Positions 1 through 35,640 of a stretch of DNA of 64,000 bases are shown here, piece by piece; the first letter of the stretch is position 1; the number at the start of each line of letters is the position of its first letter. The position numbers and the translations under genes are program-made. Source of the DNA: Armatimonadota bacterium (GTDB lineage: Bacteria; Armatimonadota; Fimbriimonadia; Fimbriimonadales; Fimbriimonadaceae); contig JACRPN010000004.1 in assembly GCA_016223145.1 (NCBI GenBank), forward strand, positions 1 to 64,000, read 5' to 3'. Below the pieces are notes generated by a model. The model saw nothing but the letters and a program-made list of their open reading frames with translations. It made no database searches and was not told where the DNA came from.

Positions 1-23
1 CGGGCATTTCTTGGGAGTGTGGA

Positions 24-83
24 GGGATGGGGGGGCGGAGGTGTGGAGGGATGGAGGGGCGGAATGGTGGAGGGGTGGAAGAT
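24..83. repeat. Left arm of inverted repeat around S23-like gene
   Basis: G-rich low-complexity DNA built on a tgtggaggg/atggagggg unit. Its inner end (about 59-83) is complementary, with about 4 mismatches in 25, to the C-rich block at 579-613. The two arms enclose the four-helix-bundle gene at 102-494, so the whole unit (24-613) can fold into a long stem with the gene in the loop. Confidence 0.7.
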
Positions 84-101
84 GTGGCAACTGCGGACGG
101 G

Positions 102-494
102 CTAGTTCCTTTTGGTAGCGGGACCGCACCAGGAGGATGGCGACGACATCATTTTGACAAGGCTGCCAGATATCTTCTTAAGCTCCGATTCGAGAAGGTC
201 AAATTCCGCTGGAGTAATGTAGCCACATGCCATTGCGAAATCAATCCACGAACGAGATTCGTGGCATTCCGCGTCAGCATCTGAAAGTTTGGCGACGAAG
301 TGAGCCTCATAGCGTCGTTTGCCCCACGCTTCAGCGATGTTCGCCGCGATCGAACGCGTGGCACGCCTGCTCTGAGAAGTGAGACTCCGTTCCTCGCTCT
401 TGGGCCAATCTCTGGATAGCTCAAAGACGCGCATCGCAACTGCGAACGCATCCTGATAGCACCTAAGTTCCTTGAAGTCCTTGACTAGTGGCAT
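102..494 (-). CDS. Four helix bundle protein (23S rRNA intervening-sequence S23-like)
   Basis: A 130-residue protein of the S23 / 23S rRNA-IVP four-helix-bundle family, recognised from the N-terminal pattern VKDFKELRCYQDAF, the central SRRATRSIAANIAEAWGKR and the following KLSDADAE helix. Family members were first found in intervening sequences of 23S rRNA genes; their molecular role is not settled. The start at 494 (MPLVKDF) is preferred because the family motif begins at residue 3; an in-frame ATG 21 codons upstream only adds an arginine- and cysteine-rich shadow. The gene is enclosed by inverted low-complexity repeats (24-83 and 579-613) with no rRNA nearby. A second copy, broken by a nonsense codon, lies at 24374-24742 in the same kind of setting. 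Family assignment is secure; function is unknown. Confidence 0.88.
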   Translation of the reverse strand: MPLVKDFKELRCYQDAFAVAMRVFELSRDWPKSEERSLTSQSRRATRSIAANIAEAWGKRRYEAHFVAKLSDADAECHESRSWIDFAMACGYITPAEFDLLESELKKISGSLVKMMSSPSSWCGPATKRN

Positions 495-578
495 GTTGCT
501 CCAACTACAGGTTCGTCTGGAACGCGGATCCTCCTGTTCATCGCATCCGTGCAACAATATCGATCGGGTTCACCTTCC

Positions 579-613
579 ATACTTCCACCCCTCCACACCT
601 CCACCCATCTCCC
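579..613. repeat. Right arm of inverted repeat around S23-like gene
   Basis: C-rich block reading cttccacccctccacacc and onward. Its reverse complement matches the G-rich block ending at 83. It lies just upstream of the promoter of the glycosyltransferase gene. Confidence 0.7.
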
Positions 614-11795: not shown

Positions 11796-12464
11796 GTGGA
11801 AGAAGGGAGGCAAAAGAAGTCGACTATGGAAGGCACCGATGAAGCTGAACTCCGAGAGTTTGTCCGGCTTCAGGTTGATGTAGGGCTTTTCTCCAAGTTC
11901 GAAATTGTGGAGATCGCCATGACGGTCTTTAAAGATGACTTCGAGGCAGACGCCATGCATCCCGTCCTCATAAACCAGACTGACGAGTTGTGGGCGGCGC
12001 GTCTGGAAGAACAACGGAGTTGGCCGCCAATTACCGATTGTGACAAGCTAGACGCGGCGTTCCAAGAACTTGATAACTCGGGCATTGTTGCTCGGCAGGA
12101 CTTTACCGATTGCCAAACGTGCGGAAACAGCGAAATCTGGAACGAGATGTCCAAGGCGCGGGAAGCAGGGCACCGGGTTCGCGGATATACGTTCTACCAT
12201 CAGCAAGACTCGGAATCGGCTACCGAGGGGTACGGCGTGTTTCTTTCGTATGGGTCGACCCGCAAAGGATCGTGGTTTCAGCGTGGGATTGCGGCCGAAG
12301 TTTGCAGAGTGCTTCGACGGCACGGGCTGAGCGTGACCTGGCCGTGGAGCGTCAGGACACGAATCCACTGCGAGTTGGATTGGAAACGGCGGCTTAGGGA
12401 AAACGGGATGCCTGTGACTCATACGACTACCACAAGCTGGGAAGCCCCATGGCACGGGTCATGA
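11796..12464 (+). CDS. DUF6891 domain protein
   Basis: A 222-residue protein with the DUF6891 pattern: an N-terminal helical segment (ELREFVRLQVDVGLFS), LDAAFQELDNSGIVARQDFTDCQTCG, GYTFYHQQDSESATEGYGVFLSYGS, and RIHCELDWKRRL near the C-terminus. Function of the family is unknown. A GTG at 11796 or the ATG at 11826 could be the start. The last 20 residues (TTTTSWEAPWHGS) run past the usual family end and overlap the 5' side of the next frame, so the stop may have shifted. Confidence 0.72.
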   Translation: MEEGRQKKSTMEGTDEAELREFVRLQVDVGLFSKFEIVEIAMTVFKDDFEADAMHPVLINQTDELWAARLEEQRSWPPITDCDKLDAAFQELDNSGIVARQDFTDCQTCGNSEIWNEMSKAREAGHRVRGYTFYHQQDSESATEGYGVFLSYGSTRKGSWFQRGIAAEVCRVLRRHGLSVTWPWSVRTRIHCELDWKRRLRENGMPVTHTTTTSWEAPWHGS

Positions 12465-20315: not shown

Positions 20316-20391
20316 TGGTGCCGCAGGCCGGACTCGAACCGGCGACCCAAGGATTTTCAGTCCTTTGCTCTACCAACTGAGCTACCGCGGC
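20316..20391 (-). tRNA. tRNA-Phe (GAA)
   Basis: A 76-nt cloverleaf on the minus strand. The 7-bp acceptor stem GCCGCGG/CTGCGGC has one G-U pair, the D arm contains AGCTCAGTTGGTAGAGC, the anticodon loop is CTGAAAA (anticodon GAA) on a 5-bp stem, and the T arm contains GGTTCGAGTCC. Discriminator A and CCA are encoded. Confidence 0.95.
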
Positions 20392-20448
20392 GCTTGGTCT
20401 CTGTTTTCGGAACCTTGAAGGCTCCGCTGCACCCCAAATGAACGGGGA

Positions 20449-20524
20449 TGGCGAGGATGACGGGATTTGAACCCGCGACCTCCGGCGTGACAGGCCGGCG
20501 CTCTAACCGCTGAGCTACACCCCC
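20449..20524 (-). tRNA. tRNA-Asp (GTC)
   Basis: A 76-nt cloverleaf on the minus strand, about 57 nt upstream of tRNA-Phe. The acceptor stem is GGGGGTG/CATCCTC, the anticodon loop CTGTCAC (anticodon GTC) sits on a ccggc/gccgg stem, and the T arm contains GGTTCAAATCC. Discriminator G and CCA are encoded. Confidence 0.95.
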
Positions 20525-20582: not shown

Positions 20583-20672
20583 CTTGATGCCTCCGCCTCT
20601 TCCGAGGTGGAGGCTTAGAACTTGAAGAGCCGCTGTCGAAGCCTCCACCTCGGAAGAGGCGGAGGCATCAAG
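20583..20672. repeat. Perfect 34-bp inverted repeat
   Basis: Arms 20583-20616 and 20639-20672 are exact reverse complements with a 22-nt spacer. Each arm also folds on itself (cctccgcctc-ttcc-gaggtggagg, one mismatch), so the unit is two head-to-head REP-like hairpins. It separates the tRNA genes from the HAD gene and may act as a bidirectional terminator or be a mobile repeat pair. Confidence 0.9.
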
Positions 20673-23197: not shown

Positions 23198-24286
23198 TCA
23201 CCTGATCGAGTCGATCTCGACCCGCCTTCCACCGGACTTGGCGCTCTTGTAAATGGCGAGAATCACCTTGAGCGGCTCGATCGCCAGGTCGCCGGTGATA
23301 TAGGGGTCCCGGTTCTCCTGGATCGCCCGTGTGAAGTCCTCGATCTGGAGCCTATGTTGCTCCGACCAGAGCGCCGATGGATCGGAGGCGCCGGTCGCCC
23401 CCTCGGCCTTCTCCTCGTGGACGTCGATCTTGGGGGTTGGCTGCTGGGTGACGCCGCCACCGTAGGGGCTGGTGTCTTTTGGCGCTTCGGGGTCCACCTT
23501 GAGGACCTTGAACCGGTCGCCTTCGATGATCGCCGAGCCGAATTGGCCGTGCACCTCAAGGCGCTCGCTGAACCCTGGATAGGTGCTGGTCGAGCCGTGG
23601 ATGAGGCCGACCGCGCCGTTCTTGTACTCGACCAAGGCATAGGCGAGGTCCTCGACTTCGATGTCGTGGACCGCCGTTCGGGTCACCGCCTGGACCGACT
23701 GCACCCCGCCCATGATCCACTGGAGCATATCGATGTAGTGGACGCCCTGGTTCATCAGGCATCCGCCGCCATCCAGCTTCCAGGTGCCCCGCCAATCGCC
23801 TGAGTCGTAGTAGGCCTGGGTCCGATACCACTTGATGTAGGCGTCGCCCATGATCAGCTTGCCCAGCTTCCCGCCTTGGGCGGCCTCACGAAGCGCGCGG
23901 ATGTCCTGGGCGAACCTGTGTTGGCTGATGACGCCGAGCTTGACCTTCGAGGCTTTGCAGGTGTCGATAAGAGCCTTCGCCTGCTTATAGGTGACGTCGA
24001 TGGGCTTTTCGGTGAGCACGTGCTTTCCGGCCTGAGCCGCCTTGATGCCGATCTTGTGGTGGAGCCCGCTGGGCACGCAGACAGTGATGGCGTCGACCTT
24101 GGGCAATAGCCCGCTGAGGGTCGTGAAAGAGGGCACACCGTACTTCTTTCCGGCCGCTTTGGCCTTGTCCTTGATGATGTCGCAGACACCGACAAGCTCT
24201 GCTCCCTCGATGTTTGCGATGGCATCGCAGTGCATCCCGTGGATGACACCGCATCCGACGACGCCGAACTGTACTTTCTTCTTCAT
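23198..24286 (-). CDS. Gfo/Idh/MocA family oxidoreductase
   Basis: A 362-residue NAD(P)-dependent dehydrogenase, probably on a sugar or inositol. The Rossmann motif GVVGCGVIHGMHCDAI is at the N-terminus, TEKPIDVTYKQA supplies the conserved EKP, and the C-terminal sheet domain contains WRGTWKLDGGGCLMNQGVHYIDMLQW with the catalytic-region H-x2-D. The length is typical. It lies with a TIM-barrel isomerase and a DapA-like gene, a common set in sugar-acid or inositol catabolism. Confidence 0.92.
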   Translation of the reverse strand: MKKKVQFGVVGCGVIHGMHCDAIANIEGAELVGVCDIIKDKAKAAGKKYGVPSFTTLSGLLPKVDAITVCVPSGLHHKIGIKAAQAGKHVLTEKPIDVTYKQAKALIDTCKASKVKLGVISQHRFAQDIRALREAAQGGKLGKLIMGDAYIKWYRTQAYYDSGDWRGTWKLDGGGCLMNQGVHYIDMLQWIMGGVQSVQAVTRTAVHDIEVEDLAYALVEYKNGAVGLIHGSTSTYPGFSERLEVHGQFGSAIIEGDRFKVLKVDPEAPKDTSPYGGGVTQQPTPKIDVHEEKAEGATGASDPSALWSEQHRLQIEDFTRAIQENRDPYITGDLAIEPLKVILAIYKSAKSGGRRVEIDSIR

Positions 24287-24318: not shown

Positions 24319-24352
24319 GAGTGAAGAGAAAAGGAGATGAAGCGATGAGGAG
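24319..24352. repeat. Left arm of inverted repeat around second S23-like gene
   Basis: Purine-rich block agtgaagagaaaaggagatg and onward to gatgaggag. Over 33 nt it is complementary, with 6 mismatches, to 24851-24883. Confidence 0.75.
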
Positions 24353-24373: not shown

Positions 24374-24742
24374 TCATCTTGTCCAGTCCTCTGCCCGTTT
24401 GGCCATCAGCACGAGCGCCCCGATTAGGCCCTCATATCGTTCGATCATAGCGTTGCTCTGCTCAGCACCCATGTATCCGCACGCCTCAGCGTGCTCAAGC
24501 CAAGACTGGGTCTCAGCCGCCTCGGCTTCCGCTTCATTGAGTTTGCTTACGAAGGCAGCCTGGTAGCGTCTCTTCCTCCATGCCTCGGCGATTGCCGCAG
24601 TTACAGACCTCGAAGATCTCCTCACTTGATCTGTAAGTGAATATCGCTATTCCGGCGGAAATAGCTTTGTGGCCCCGAAGATCACGGACGCGAGTTTGAA
24701 CGCTTCTTGATAGACTCGAAGATCGCGATGGCTCTTGACCAA
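24374..24742 (-). pseudogene. S23-like four helix bundle gene with in-frame stop
   Basis: Two reading-frame pieces in the same frame add up to one S23-like protein. The N-terminal part (LVKSHRDLRVYQEAFKLASV) ends at FPPE followed by TAG (24647-24649). Right after the stop the family sequence continues as RYSLTDQVRRSSRSVTAAIAEAW and KRRYQAAFVSKLNEAEAEAAE. The expected codon is GAG (Glu), so one G-to-T change made the stop. A TTG at 24742 is the likely original start, matching the MPLVKD start of the intact copy at 102-494. The gene sits inside an inverted repeat. Readthrough cannot be excluded, but decay is the simpler view. Confidence 0.85.
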
Positions 24743-24850: not shown

Positions 24851-24883
24851 CTCCTCATCCCTTCATCACTTCATCCCTTCACT
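24851..24883. repeat. Right arm of inverted repeat around second S23-like gene
   Basis: Pyrimidine-rich block ctcctcatcccttcatcact and onward, with a repeated ttcatc unit. It pairs with 24319-24352. Confidence 0.75.
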
Positions 24884-24920: not shown

Positions 24921-25757
24921 TCAGCAGACTCCTCCAGCTTCGGCCACGGTCTTTCGCAGGGCGTTGACCGCGGATTCGAAGAGCTGCGGGCCGGAAAAGC
25001 CGCCGAACGGTCCCTTGGCGCTGAGGTGCGGTTCGAGCGTCAGCGTGCCGCGCCATCCCTTCGCGATCAGCCAGCGCATTGTCTCGACCATCTGCCCATC
25101 CCCTTCGCCGCTTGGCACGATGGCCCCGGTGGCCTCCACGGAGTCCTTGATGTGGAGTGTATCGAGGTGCGGCAAGACCCAAGGAAACCAGTGTGGAAAA
25201 GGCCGATAGCCGATCAGGACGGCGTTTGAGAAGTCAAAAACGGCCCGAAAGTTGGGTCCTGAGAACTCCTCGAGCAGGCGTCGGCAGTTGTTGGGATAGG
25301 CCCCAAAAAACCGCGCGTCGTTCTCGTGGATCAGGATCAGATCGTTGGCCTGAGCCAGATCCACCATCTCCTTCATCCAGGAACGCACCTCGGGCCAGTT
25401 CGCGTCGTCATCGTCTCCGGCACCTGTCTCAGGCGTGAAAATCCGAATCCGCTTCGTGCCGAGCACCTTGGCGGCCTCAACGGACTGCGCCAGCTTCTCA
25501 AGCTCGTTTTTCCGGTTCTCGGACGAAACAAGGACCTTGTTGACCGGCGACCCCACGCACTGGATGGCGATGTTCTGCGATTCAGCCGCCTCGCGCAATT
25601 CCGACAGCCGCTGCGGAGAAAGCTGCAAGACGTTCAGCCCGTCCAGGCCCCGCACGTCGATGCCGCCGATACCAAGCCGCTTGAGCGTGGAAAGCTGCAC
25701 ATCGAGATCAGGGCTGATCTCGTCCGCAAAGCCAGAGGTTGGGAACCGTTGCGCCAT
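24921..25757 (-). CDS. Sugar phosphate isomerase/epimerase-like TIM barrel
   Basis: A 278-residue xylose-isomerase-like TIM barrel (AP_endonuc_2 fold). Marks include GFADEISPDLDVQLSTLKRLG, IDVRGLDGLNV, the ILIHENDARFFG strand with a metal-ligand Glu, RAVFDFSNAVLIG, LHIKDSV and the closing LTLEPHL. These residues fit the divalent-metal site of IolE/IolI/ketose-epimerase relatives; the exact substrate is unclear. The ATG at 25757 begins the fold and has TAGCCT 7 nt upstream; a much longer in-frame start is arginine-rich shadow. Divergent from the DapA-like gene. Confidence 0.88.
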   Translation of the reverse strand: MAQRFPTSGFADEISPDLDVQLSTLKRLGIGGIDVRGLDGLNVLQLSPQRLSELREAAESQNIAIQCVGSPVNKVLVSSENRKNELEKLAQSVEAAKVLGTKRIRIFTPETGAGDDDDANWPEVRSWMKEMVDLAQANDLILIHENDARFFGAYPNNCRRLLEEFSGPNFRAVFDFSNAVLIGYRPFPHWFPWVLPHLDTLHIKDSVEATGAIVPSGEGDGQMVETMRWLIAKGWRGTLTLEPHLSAKGPFGGFSGPQLFESAVNALRKTVAEAGGVC

Positions 25758-25764
25758 GGCCGCA

Positions 25765-25770
25765 AGGCTA
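25765..25770 (-). promoter_or_regulatory. -10-like hexamer TAGCCT, leaderless type
   Basis: Minus-strand TAGCCT, 7 nt, then ATG at 25757. Forms a divergent promoter pair with CATAAT at 25847-25852. Confidence 0.4.
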
Positions 25771-25788
25771 CCTTCGCCCCGGTCAGGA

Positions 25789-25837
25789 GTGCAGCCATCC
25801 TTGGCTGCACCCCGGACCGCAGGCATCCCTGCCTGCG
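25789..25837. repeat. Two REP-like hairpins in a divergent promoter region
   Basis: gtgcagcca-tcct-tggctgcac (25789-25810) and cgcaggc-atccct-gcctgcg (25818-25837) are both perfect stems. They fill the space between the divergent promoters of the TIM-barrel and DapA-like genes. Confidence 0.75.
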
Positions 25838-25846
25838 CGGCTCCGA

Positions 25847-25852
25847 CATAAT
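25847..25852 (+). promoter_or_regulatory. -10-like hexamer CATAAT, leaderless type
   Basis: CATAAT, 6 nt (cgcaac), ATG at 25859. Identical hexamer and spacing to the promoters at 623 and 26811. Confidence 0.65.
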
Positions 25853-25858
25853 CGCAAC

Positions 25859-26755
25859 ATGATTCAGCCCGGCACCTATCCCGCCGCCGTAACCCCGCTC
25901 GACGAAAAAGGGCGCATCGATTGGGCGGGCGTCGCCAAGCTGCTCGCCTGGTTCGAGAGCTCTGGATGCACGGGCGCCGTGCTCGCGGGCACAAACGGCG
26001 AGGGCCCTTCCCTCTCAGCAACCGAAAAACGCGATCTGATGGAAAGGGCCATGCCGATGCGAGGCAAGCTCGACCTGATCCTCGGCATTGCCACTCCCAG
26101 CGTCGAAGAGGCGAAGTGGCTCTGCCGAAGGGCGGCTGATGCCGGCGCCGTCGGCGCTCTGGTCATGCCGCCGTTCTACTTTCGTGAAGCCTCAGAAATG
26201 GGGGTCCGGGATTGGTTCCTGGAGCTGCTCGACGCATCCCCCTTGCCCGTCATCGTCTACAACTTCCCAAAGCGGGCCGGAATGGCCATCTCGCACGGCC
26301 TGATGGCAGAACTTGCGCGCCACGAGCGGATGGCAGGCGCGAAGGATTCGAGCGGCGAGCGAGAGAATCTCGCCGGATATCACACTGCCATGACGAGGGA
26401 GGATCAACGCCTATTTGTCGGCGACGAGACGCTACTCTATGAAGCTCTGGAGACTGGTTGGTCCGGGACGATCAGCGGGGCTTCGAACGTTCTGGCCTTG
26501 CCGATCTCTGCGCTCGTTCAGGATTATCTGGCCGGTCGAAAAGAGTCTGCCGAGGCTAAGTTCACCCTGGTTCTTCCGCTGATCGAGGCGATCCGCAAGA
26601 GCCTTCAGCCCGCCAGCCACAAGGCGATTCTCAACACTTGGGGAGTGCTGCCGACGGCGCGCGTCCGGCGGCCACTCGTGGAGGCCGACTCAGCGAGGAC
26701 AGACGAGCTCAGAAAGCTCATCGAAGAACATACAGGTCTGCCTATGGGTGTTTAG
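25859..26755 (+). CDS. Dihydrodipicolinate synthase/N-acetylneuraminate lyase family protein
   Basis: A 298-residue class I aldolase TIM barrel. GTNGEGPSL (44-52) is the carboxylate-binding loop, Y134 in VIVYNFPKRAG and the Schiff-base K162 in GAKDSSGE are in place, and SGASNVLALP follows. The DapA/NanA family makes or splits 2-keto acids with pyruvate. Because it lies beside an oxidoreductase and an isomerase-like gene, a catabolic keto-acid lyase is as likely as lysine biosynthesis. The start is fixed by the CATAAT hexamer 6 nt upstream. Confidence 0.9.
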   Translation: MIQPGTYPAAVTPLDEKGRIDWAGVAKLLAWFESSGCTGAVLAGTNGEGPSLSATEKRDLMERAMPMRGKLDLILGIATPSVEEAKWLCRRAADAGAVGALVMPPFYFREASEMGVRDWFLELLDASPLPVIVYNFPKRAGMAISHGLMAELARHERMAGAKDSSGERENLAGYHTAMTREDQRLFVGDETLLYEALETGWSGTISGASNVLALPISALVQDYLAGRKESAEAKFTLVLPLIEAIRKSLQPASHKAILNTWGVLPTARVRRPLVEADSARTDELRKLIEEHTGLPMGV

Positions 26756-34416: not shown

Positions 34417-35640
34417 GTGAAACGGGCGATTGTGATTGTGCTCGATGGCGTGGGAGCCGGGTTCGCCCCCGACTCCCACGAGTTCGGCGACGTCGGCGAA
34501 CCCTCGACCTTGAGGCACGTGTGGGACGCGGCCGGCGGATTTTCTGCGCCGTACCTTGCCGAGATCGGATTCCTTGCGGCAGGCGGGATCCCTGCAGCAG
34601 AAATCGCACTTCACGGCCTCGCCTCCCTCACCGACTCACCGTCTCACCGTCTCCACGACTCACCGTCTCACCCTCTCACCCCCTCACTCCCCCTTTCCAG
34701 CTGGGCCCGCCTCCAGCCTCTATCCAAGGGCGGCAAGGACTCGGTCACGGGGCACTGGGAAATGATGGGCGTCGTGCTAGGCGAGCGCTTTCCAACCTAT
34801 CCGAACGGTTTCCCGATTCCACTTCTCAAGGAGTTCGAAGCAGCGATCGGCACGCAGACGCTTGGAAACTGCCCCGCCAGCGGGACTGAGATCATCGCTC
34901 GGCTCGGCAAACTCCACGTCGAGACAGGATTCCCCATCGTCTATACCAGCGCCGACAGTGTGTTCCAGATCGCGTGCCATGAGGCGGTGGTGCCCGTGGC
35001 ACAGCTTTACGAATGGTGCCTGACTGCGCGCAGGCTCTGCGTACCTCCGGATGGCGTTCAGCGCGTGATCGCCAGGCCGTTTGTTGGAGACCCCGAATCG
35101 GGGTTCACAAGAACCGACAACCGCAAGGACTTCCCGATGACGCCGCCCCGCAACCTGGCGGATGAGATCGGAGACGTCTTCGGCATCGGGGTCGTTCCCG
35201 AACTCTTCGGGGGCAGGGGGTTTCGGCAAGTTCGACGCACCCAGAACAACGCCGAGCACGCCGAGATGCTCTGGGGGGCGCTGGAAACCGATGCGCGGTT
35301 CATCTTCGCCAACTTTGAGGACACCGACATGCGCTACGGGCATCGAAACGACCCACAGGGCTTCGCGCGCTGCCTGGAGGAGTTCGATCGGGAAGTTCTC
35401 GGCCCCCTGATCGGCAAACTGACACCCGACGACTTGCTGATCTTGACCGCGGACCACGGAAACGACCCCACCGACGCTTCGACCGATCACACGCGTGAGT
35501 ACGTGCCGGGTGTGGCTGTAGGCGCGACGGCGCCGGGAGAAAACCCTCTGGGGGACATCGAGGGCTTCGCAACAATCGGCCGCACGGTCGCCGCACACCT
35601 GGGCATTGCCGGATACGAGGGACCGATCCTCCTGGATTGA
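34417..35640 (+). CDS. deoB: Phosphopentomutase
   Basis: A 407-residue alkaline-phosphatase-superfamily mutase interconverting ribose or deoxyribose 1- and 5-phosphates in nucleoside salvage. VIVLDGVGAG holds the first metal Asp, GGKDSVTGHWEMMG contains the phosphorylated Thr region, FANFEDTDMRYGHRND and ILTADHGNDPTDASTDHTRE hold the remaining metal ligands. GTG start, 4 nt after the mscL stop. Residues about 66-97 (DSPSHRLHDSPSHPLTPSLP) are encoded by caccgtct-type repeats and precede the conserved GKD segment; they look like an in-frame low-complexity insertion in the surface loop. Confidence 0.93.
   Translation: MKRAIVIVLDGVGAGFAPDSHEFGDVGEPSTLRHVWDAAGGFSAPYLAEIGFLAAGGIPAAEIALHGLASLTDSPSHRLHDSPSHPLTPSLPLSSWARLQPLSKGGKDSVTGHWEMMGVVLGERFPTYPNGFPIPLLKEFEAAIGTQTLGNCPASGTEIIARLGKLHVETGFPIVYTSADSVFQIACHEAVVPVAQLYEWCLTARRLCVPPDGVQRVIARPFVGDPESGFTRTDNRKDFPMTPPRNLADEIGDVFGIGVVPELFGGRGFRQVRRTQNNAEHAEMLWGALETDARFIFANFEDTDMRYGHRNDPQGFARCLEEFDREVLGPLIGKLTPDDLLILTADHGNDPTDASTDHTREYVPGVAVGATAPGENPLGDIEGFATIGRTVAAHLGIAGYEGPILLD
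34617..34704. repeat. In-frame low-complexity insertion in deoB
   Basis: Repeats of actcaccgtctcacc and variants, strongly pyrimidine-biased, without a shift of frame. This is one-sided (no clear complementary arm), unlike the dGTPase-gene block. Confidence 0.6.

Follow-up and report, generated by a model that had tools for sequence, protein, structure and literature searches.

The window analyzed here, by which we mean the whole stretch of DNA under study, is the first 64 kb of contig C4 in a draft genome of 3.87 Mb (G000). At its left end a minus-strand gene occupies positions 102–494 (ATG at 494, stop codon at 102–104) and encodes an intact protein of 130 amino acids. This product is a member of the S23/four-helix-bundle family (4HB; PF05635/TIGR02436), with matches to PF05635 at E = 2.7e-28 (98.7 bits versus a curated cut-off of 33.8) and to TIGR02436 at E = 1.1e-26 (93.2 bits versus a curated cut-off of 24). 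Its AF2 model (pLDDT 94.5) has XCC0516 (2gsc) as the top PDB match and also matches Avd (4dwl), less well than XCC0516. The preliminary description of this locus had noted a G-rich and a complementary C-rich block around the gene; both were confirmed and, when re-measured, proved slightly wider. The outer arm, downstream in the sense of the gene, is a G-rich stutter array of octamers at 16–83 of the plus strand (16–79 with period 8/24 according to TRF), and the upstream arm, at 573–609 of the same strand, is a C-rich stutter array, the complement of 38–74. The best pairing joins 38–74 with 573–609 (37 nt, 76% complementary), and an alternative one joins 33–64 with 575–606 (81% complementary). 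This first element has an arm score of 37, and the arm pairs of the window score 36–37 versus a maximum of 33 in 2839 random window placements. A divergent plus-strand ORF (635–1333), which we take to encode a glycosyltransferase-like protein, starts 26 nt past the upstream arm; it is the only visible neighbor, since the contig begins on the other side. That contig start (window 1–83) falls inside or beside the stutter array, which is hence the probable cause of the break in the assembly.

The second element had been described as having the same layout with a repeat unit of its own, and so we found it, with a broken gene. Its 4HB coding remnant (24422–24727, minus strand; PF05635 E = 3.2e-26) contains one in-frame TAG and is enclosed, in plus-strand coordinates, by GATGAAG-type octamers at 24320–24352 (downstream in the sense of the gene) and a stutter array at 24851–24883 (upstream) that pairs with them over 33 nt at 82% complementarity. 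Both flanking genes are co-directional with the remnant on the minus strand: the upstream ORF (24921–26021) stops 38 nt before one arm, and the downstream ORF (23198–24286), presumably oxidoreductase-like, starts 34 nt past the other. The repeat period of both window elements is 8.

Across the 64-kb window no further inverted stutter pair enclosing a gene was found beyond these two elements, nor any rRNA. Two tRNAs are present at 20319–20524, and just past them there is a near-perfect 37-nt hairpin without stutter at 20583–20672. Two solo octamer arrays, given on the plus strand, are situated within ORFs. One of them, a related array at 1781–1841 with no arm partner, is translated inside an ORF that is presumably dGTPase-like; the other, at 34627–34694, lies in what we take to be a phosphopentomutase-like gene. 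Both consist of C-rich octamers, in frame, and each gives its protein a Ser/Pro-rich loop.

A PF05635 search of this genome revealed 13 places, and at least 11 of these 13 4HB genes have inverted arms, with a unit that differs from copy to copy. The typical arrangement, in the sense of the gene, is a stutter array upstream (usually G-rich) and its complement downstream; the units are GAGGCGA, GGTGAGAAT, GGCGAAG, GGTGGAGG, GATGAAGG, GAAACGGG, GGGACAAA, GAGGTCC, GATTTCG and others. L008 is an exception and L012 is weak; at L006 and L013 the pairing appears only with flanks of 500 nt. When the 4HB loci of this genome and 27 loci from relatives were scored for inverted matches, their own flanks gave a mean of 38.7; the corresponding means were 18.8 with cross-paired partners, 18.6 after dinucleotide shuffling and 19.0 at random window positions, where the maximum was 33. 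In direct orientation the flanks scored 19.9, far below the inverted value, and at 27 loci the own flank partner outscored all 39 others. Chance or low complexity as the source of the arms is ruled out by these cross-pairing, shuffling and positional controls. Compared across loci, the two arms within a copy match, and separate copies have different arms.

The scan was extended across phyla with 80 4HB loci taken from genome contigs of Bacteroidetes, Planctomycetes, Proteobacteria, Cyanobacteria, Acidobacteria, Nitrospirae, candidate phyla and others. Fifty-four of them scored above the 99th percentile of same-locus controls, where about one would be expected by chance, and the median score was 38 versus a control mean of 19.5. 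Similar inverted arms occur at extra loci in three of the scanned genomes and in gammaproteobacterial genomes. About one third of the cross-phylum loci has no significant arms; these are perhaps decayed copies. None of the 58 free-standing loci tested lies in rRNA, and a query of phage records with XCC0516 gave no match. The earlier suggestion of a free-standing family, in which stuttering complementary arms and an S23-like gene occur together outside rRNA, is thus supported: 4HB loci elsewhere share the arms, and flank complementarity exceeds that of shuffled sequences, cross-paired flanks and controls from the same locus by a wide margin, here as well as in relatives and other phyla.

The repeat period is 7 in 82 of 103 S23-type elements and 9 in six of the seven 4HB proteins with a TIGR04258 suffix domain; in a phylum-wide set of suffix-type elements, which overlaps slightly with the first set (6/7), it is 9 in 17 of 19. 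Within these sets the period follows the protein subfamily, and as different periods occur inside one genome, the host does not set it. In the suffix type an array often forms part of the coding sequence between the two domains, where a multiple of three keeps the reading frame.

Among the cyanobacteria, heptameric short sequence repeats are known as STRRs. In Xanthomonas, Rehm et al. (2015) described GGGAATC repeat patterns, 186 and 183 of them in two genomes and 70–75 cases in inverted pairs, which lie at stop codons when on the coding strand and ahead of starts when on the opposite one, and are generally unassociated with mobile elements; the corresponding Nostoc heptamer is GGGGAYT (PMC4692102). 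Xanthomonas campestris has the PF05635 protein XCC0516 (structure 2gsc), which is reported to be a homopentamer of four-helix bundles (cited in PMC4990558). The prediction that GGGAATC arms surround the XCC0516 gene was put to the test and was borne out: the closest orthologue found (87% identity), in a genome (G920) that is presumably a Xanthomonas, sits at the accB-accC junction and is flanked by GGGAATC arms. This genome contains 211 matches to three GGGAATC units (21 nt, at most 2 mismatches), and the reversed control gave 0. Among the matches listed, 16/16 XCC0516 orthologues sit before accC (accB-4HB-accC) and all 16 have inverted arms, whose unit is GGGAATC, GGGATTC or GTGAATC and changes in step between both arms (rho 0.85, permutation p < 5e-5). 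This accB-accC copy looks vertically inherited and not active. In 299 genomes of that order a 4HB match was found in 51 of 64 with GGGAWTC arrays versus 55 of 235 without them (p = 2e-16, not phylogeny-corrected); in 13 of the array-bearing genomes no 4HB match was detected.

The elements usually lie between co-directional genes: they begin a few nucleotides after the stop codon of the upstream gene and end a short way ahead of the next start. By crude ORF calling, in 60 elements whose upstream gene is co-directional the arm starts at a median of 5 nt from the stop codon, and at 15 nt or less in 41 of them; on the downstream side the median distance to the next co-directional start is 21 nt, and both neighbors are co-directional in 52 of 67 elements, adjacent control genes being on the same strand in 59 of 85. 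Certain junctions recur, which we take, partly by our own reading of the proteins, to be groES-groEL, atpH-atpA, accB-accC, nuoC-nuoD and sdhA-sdhB.

Filled and empty versions of the same site can be compared in several cases. The groES-groEL spacer of several relatives is only 18–42 nt long and holds no array; a 4HB gene, mostly armed, stands before groEL in G001/G002, G006, G008, G012, G013 and G018, and behind the groES stop codon in G001/G002, G006, G008, G012 and G013. In G015 (L084) the same junction holds a gene-less hairpin of GTAAATC units, a unit also used by another 4HB element of that genome. A single ancient groES-groEL insertion was rejected, as the 4HB copies there form no single clade (in a tree of weak support). 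The preliminary description had called for a search for empty sites, and closely related ones were found in cyanobacterial plasmids. In a plasmid VirB operon (site 1) the element is present in Trichormus variabilis (L277) and Scytonema (L278) and lacking in Nostoc linckia (L280) and Aulosira laxa (L281), with flanks about 98% identical. The junction reads AAAAAGTAATTAACAAAT when empty and AAAAAGTAAT, arm, 4HB gene, arm, GTAATTAACAAAT when filled, with a 5-bp duplication, GTAAT; Nostoc C052 has a shortened copy at this site, and Brasilonema a gene-less hairpin. In a second plasmid operon pNsp_a and N6 share one element between gene1 and gene2; the site is empty in several sister plasmids. In pNsp_c a different 4HB element, with another unit, lies between gene2 and gene3. 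Both presence and absence were found at a third plasmid site, without a clean duplication. The target duplication is clean at site 1 only, ambiguous at 2a and clean at neither 2b nor 3, and as a general rule it is not established.

From site to site, copies of the Nostoc element have only the arms and the gene in common, and the comparison shows that the inserted unit is the gene with both its arms and that the element is mobile; mobility is thus read from the comparison of sites, not from direct observation of transposition. The Nostoc 4HB gene has a dN/dS of about 0.1 between insertion sites, and its protein is under purifying selection across them. Two further candidates were set aside. The Calothrix twin plasmids are homologous over a longer region and are therefore no proof of transposition; L035, considered as an empty-site case in G001/G002, has a G002 match that covers its 4HB gene and not its flanks, and its junction is unreadable.

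The arms also occur without the gene. The array background of this genome was taken from a 400-kb sample together with the 64-kb window. The 400 kb contain 24–43 solo arrays, depending on the criterion, and many of them use units of this genome's 4HB arms. The 400-kb sample also contains several two-arm gene-less hairpins. The gene at L047:10925–12568, presumably dnaE-like, has several stutter arrays that differ in unit, as well as one such complete gene-less hairpin (12191–12295). Sampled genomes without a 4HB gene have 3 arrays in 520 kb versus 60 in 1080 kb for those with one, the 60 falling mostly in this genome and in G014; G008, G012 and G018 are 4HB genomes with hardly any solo arrays. 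By their units, the dispersed gene-less hairpins and solo arrays correspond to the 4HB arms. Unpaired arrays are so common in this genome that arrays alone are not diagnostic; inverted pairing around a gene is. The earlier picture can also be refined: the arms are the element's own ends, which are also present as dispersed gene-less copies. In cyanobacterial plasmids we observed in addition a gene-less repeat of ~180 nt with the same TCAGAAG/TCAGGAG arms as gene-bearing copies and a conserved core, CAATCAGTCGGGGATTCAGAC, at L292, L293 and L294 and at about 90 places in 42 plasmids; it is abundant on Nostoc plasmids and is probably a known small dispersed repeat.

Our preferred reading, to which we assign a probability of roughly 0.7, is that both window elements represent a hitherto undescribed, widely distributed group of small mobile elements, RAYT/REPIN-like in organization, in which a single 4HB gene lies between inverted stutter arrays with units of 7–9 nt. 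Judged from its sequence, the element encodes no other factor. No catalytic site is known in the 4HB protein, and its role in mobilization is therefore inferred rather than observed. In the mechanism that we envisage, the host operon would express the element, the 4HB protein would bind the folded arms, and its footprint would set the repeat length. The protein might then recruit host enzymes which copy the folded strand and insert it. The stutter itself could result from slippage, and the match between arms from slippage together with the copying of one arm from the other; the gene-less copies would be propagated in trans, in the manner of REPINs and their RAYTs. A broader proposition is that a small 4HB protein without a known catalytic domain moves a so far unrecognized superfamily of bacterial mobile elements and both reads and sets its stuttering repeat of 7, 8 or 9 nt, and that this family gave rise to many of the heptamers of Xanthomonas, cyanobacteria and other phyla, the 23S intervening sequence (IVS) being the rRNA-resident branch; we consider this evenly poised between true and false.

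It is possible, if doubtful, that the elements are instead free-standing IVSs that act at the RNA level, with a long stem in the host mRNA from which RNase III cuts the element, flanking genes that stay translatable and selection for sense pairing. The protein family and the architecture are those of the 23S IVS, which is RNase III-excised (PMC4990558), and the placement in operons between stop and start codons and the matched arms at the orthologous accB-accC site speak for it as well. Selection for a sense-RNA stem predicts an excess of wobble pairs, but the reverse was found: the arm mismatches of 98 elements comprise 90 of the sense-RNA G-U type versus 164 of the reverse type, which is ahead in 51 elements versus 22. 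This excess counts against simple selection for a stem in the sense RNA; possible sources of the bias are a constraint close to the 4HB start codon and folding of the opposite strand. Of the IVS-likeness first proposed for these loci, the layout stands and a resemblance at the RNA level is hypothetical. Nor does an RNA-level IVS alone explain the dispersed gene-less copies or the protein-specific period. Mismatches that set an upstream-arm A against a downstream-arm C are far commoner than those of the G-U types.

The case for domestication, by which the 4HB gene would regulate the host operon with the arms as a conserved regulatory hairpin, draws on the constancy of accB-4HB-accC (16/16 listed loci) and on the recurrence of core operon junctions (groES-EL, atpH-A, nuoC-D, sdhA-B). 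It may be true of single copies such as that at accB-accC; as a general account it is unlikely, given the patchy presence, the closely related empty sites and the non-monophyletic groES-EL copies. A retroelement, in which the 4HB protein would serve a trans-acting reverse transcriptase as an Avd-like partner, seems very unlikely: Avd shares the fold and the families have a distant sequence similarity, but no RVT_1 match was found in this genome, with its 13 4HB copies, or in G002, G006 and G015, and neither a template nor a variable repeat was seen. Hardly any credence can be given to the view that the arrays are ordinary host simple-sequence repeats in or beside which 4HB genes merely land. 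Solo arrays are indeed common in this genome, also within unrelated genes; however, the empty groES-groEL and plasmid sites lack an array (which likewise disfavors arrays as pre-existing insertion targets), 4HB-free relatives are nearly array-free, copies in one genome differ in period while period tracks protein subfamily, and the arms are inverted rather than direct.

The mobile 4HB element resembles several known systems and coincides with none. It shares with the IVSs of 23S rRNA, which carry an S23 ORF in Coxiella, Leptospira and Brucella, are RNase III-excised and have likewise been described as parasitic elements (PMC4990558), the S23 protein family, a single ORF within complementary ends and a host RNA that stays functional; it differs in residing in protein-coding operons (0/58 in rRNA), in arms that are stuttering arrays with copy-specific units, and in its gene-less dispersed derivatives. 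As with RAYTs and REPINs, one gene lies between inverted repeats that are also found as many dispersed hairpins, and the gene copies are usually few and sometimes vertically inherited, but there the protein is a Y1 HUH transposase and here it is a four-helix bundle with 7–9-nt arrays. The heptameric repeats of Xanthomonas and Nostoc have the same units, inverted pairing and stop/start-codon placement; they were reported without a gene or mobile element, whereas here they are arms of 4HB elements. The Avd protein of diversity-generating retroelements has the four-helix-bundle fold (TM about 0.73–0.88), yet the 4HB elements possess no reverse transcriptase, template or variable repeat. With MITEs and insertion sequences they share inverted ends, deletion derivatives and the one clean 5-bp target duplication, although their ends are variable stuttering arrays instead of fixed terminal repeats and no transposase accompanies the sole gene, 4HB. 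Since location separates the element from the IVS, the Y1 enzyme from RAYTs, reverse transcriptase from the retroelements and transposase from insertion sequences, we regard it as new as a system, while the protein family and the IVS architecture are already known; calling it a new variant of the IVS could also be defended. Within open-access PubMed Central we found no paper linking 4HB genes with stuttering arms or heptamer repeats.

These results offer an origin for the heptameric repeats of cyanobacteria and xanthomonads, described for decades without one. The S23 "ribosomal protein", to which no function had been assigned, is likely the central component of a mobile element of wide distribution, and the origin and movement of rRNA IVSs become testable away from essential rRNA. 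If the preferred reading is true, there is a new way to move DNA, with no recognizable nuclease, recombinase or reverse transcriptase and with stuttering ends that are protein-specific. A CRISPR survey names "23S rRNA IVP" among the new associations of CRISPR adaptation modules (PMC10910872). The stutter arrays beside 4HB genes might be taken for CRISPR arrays.
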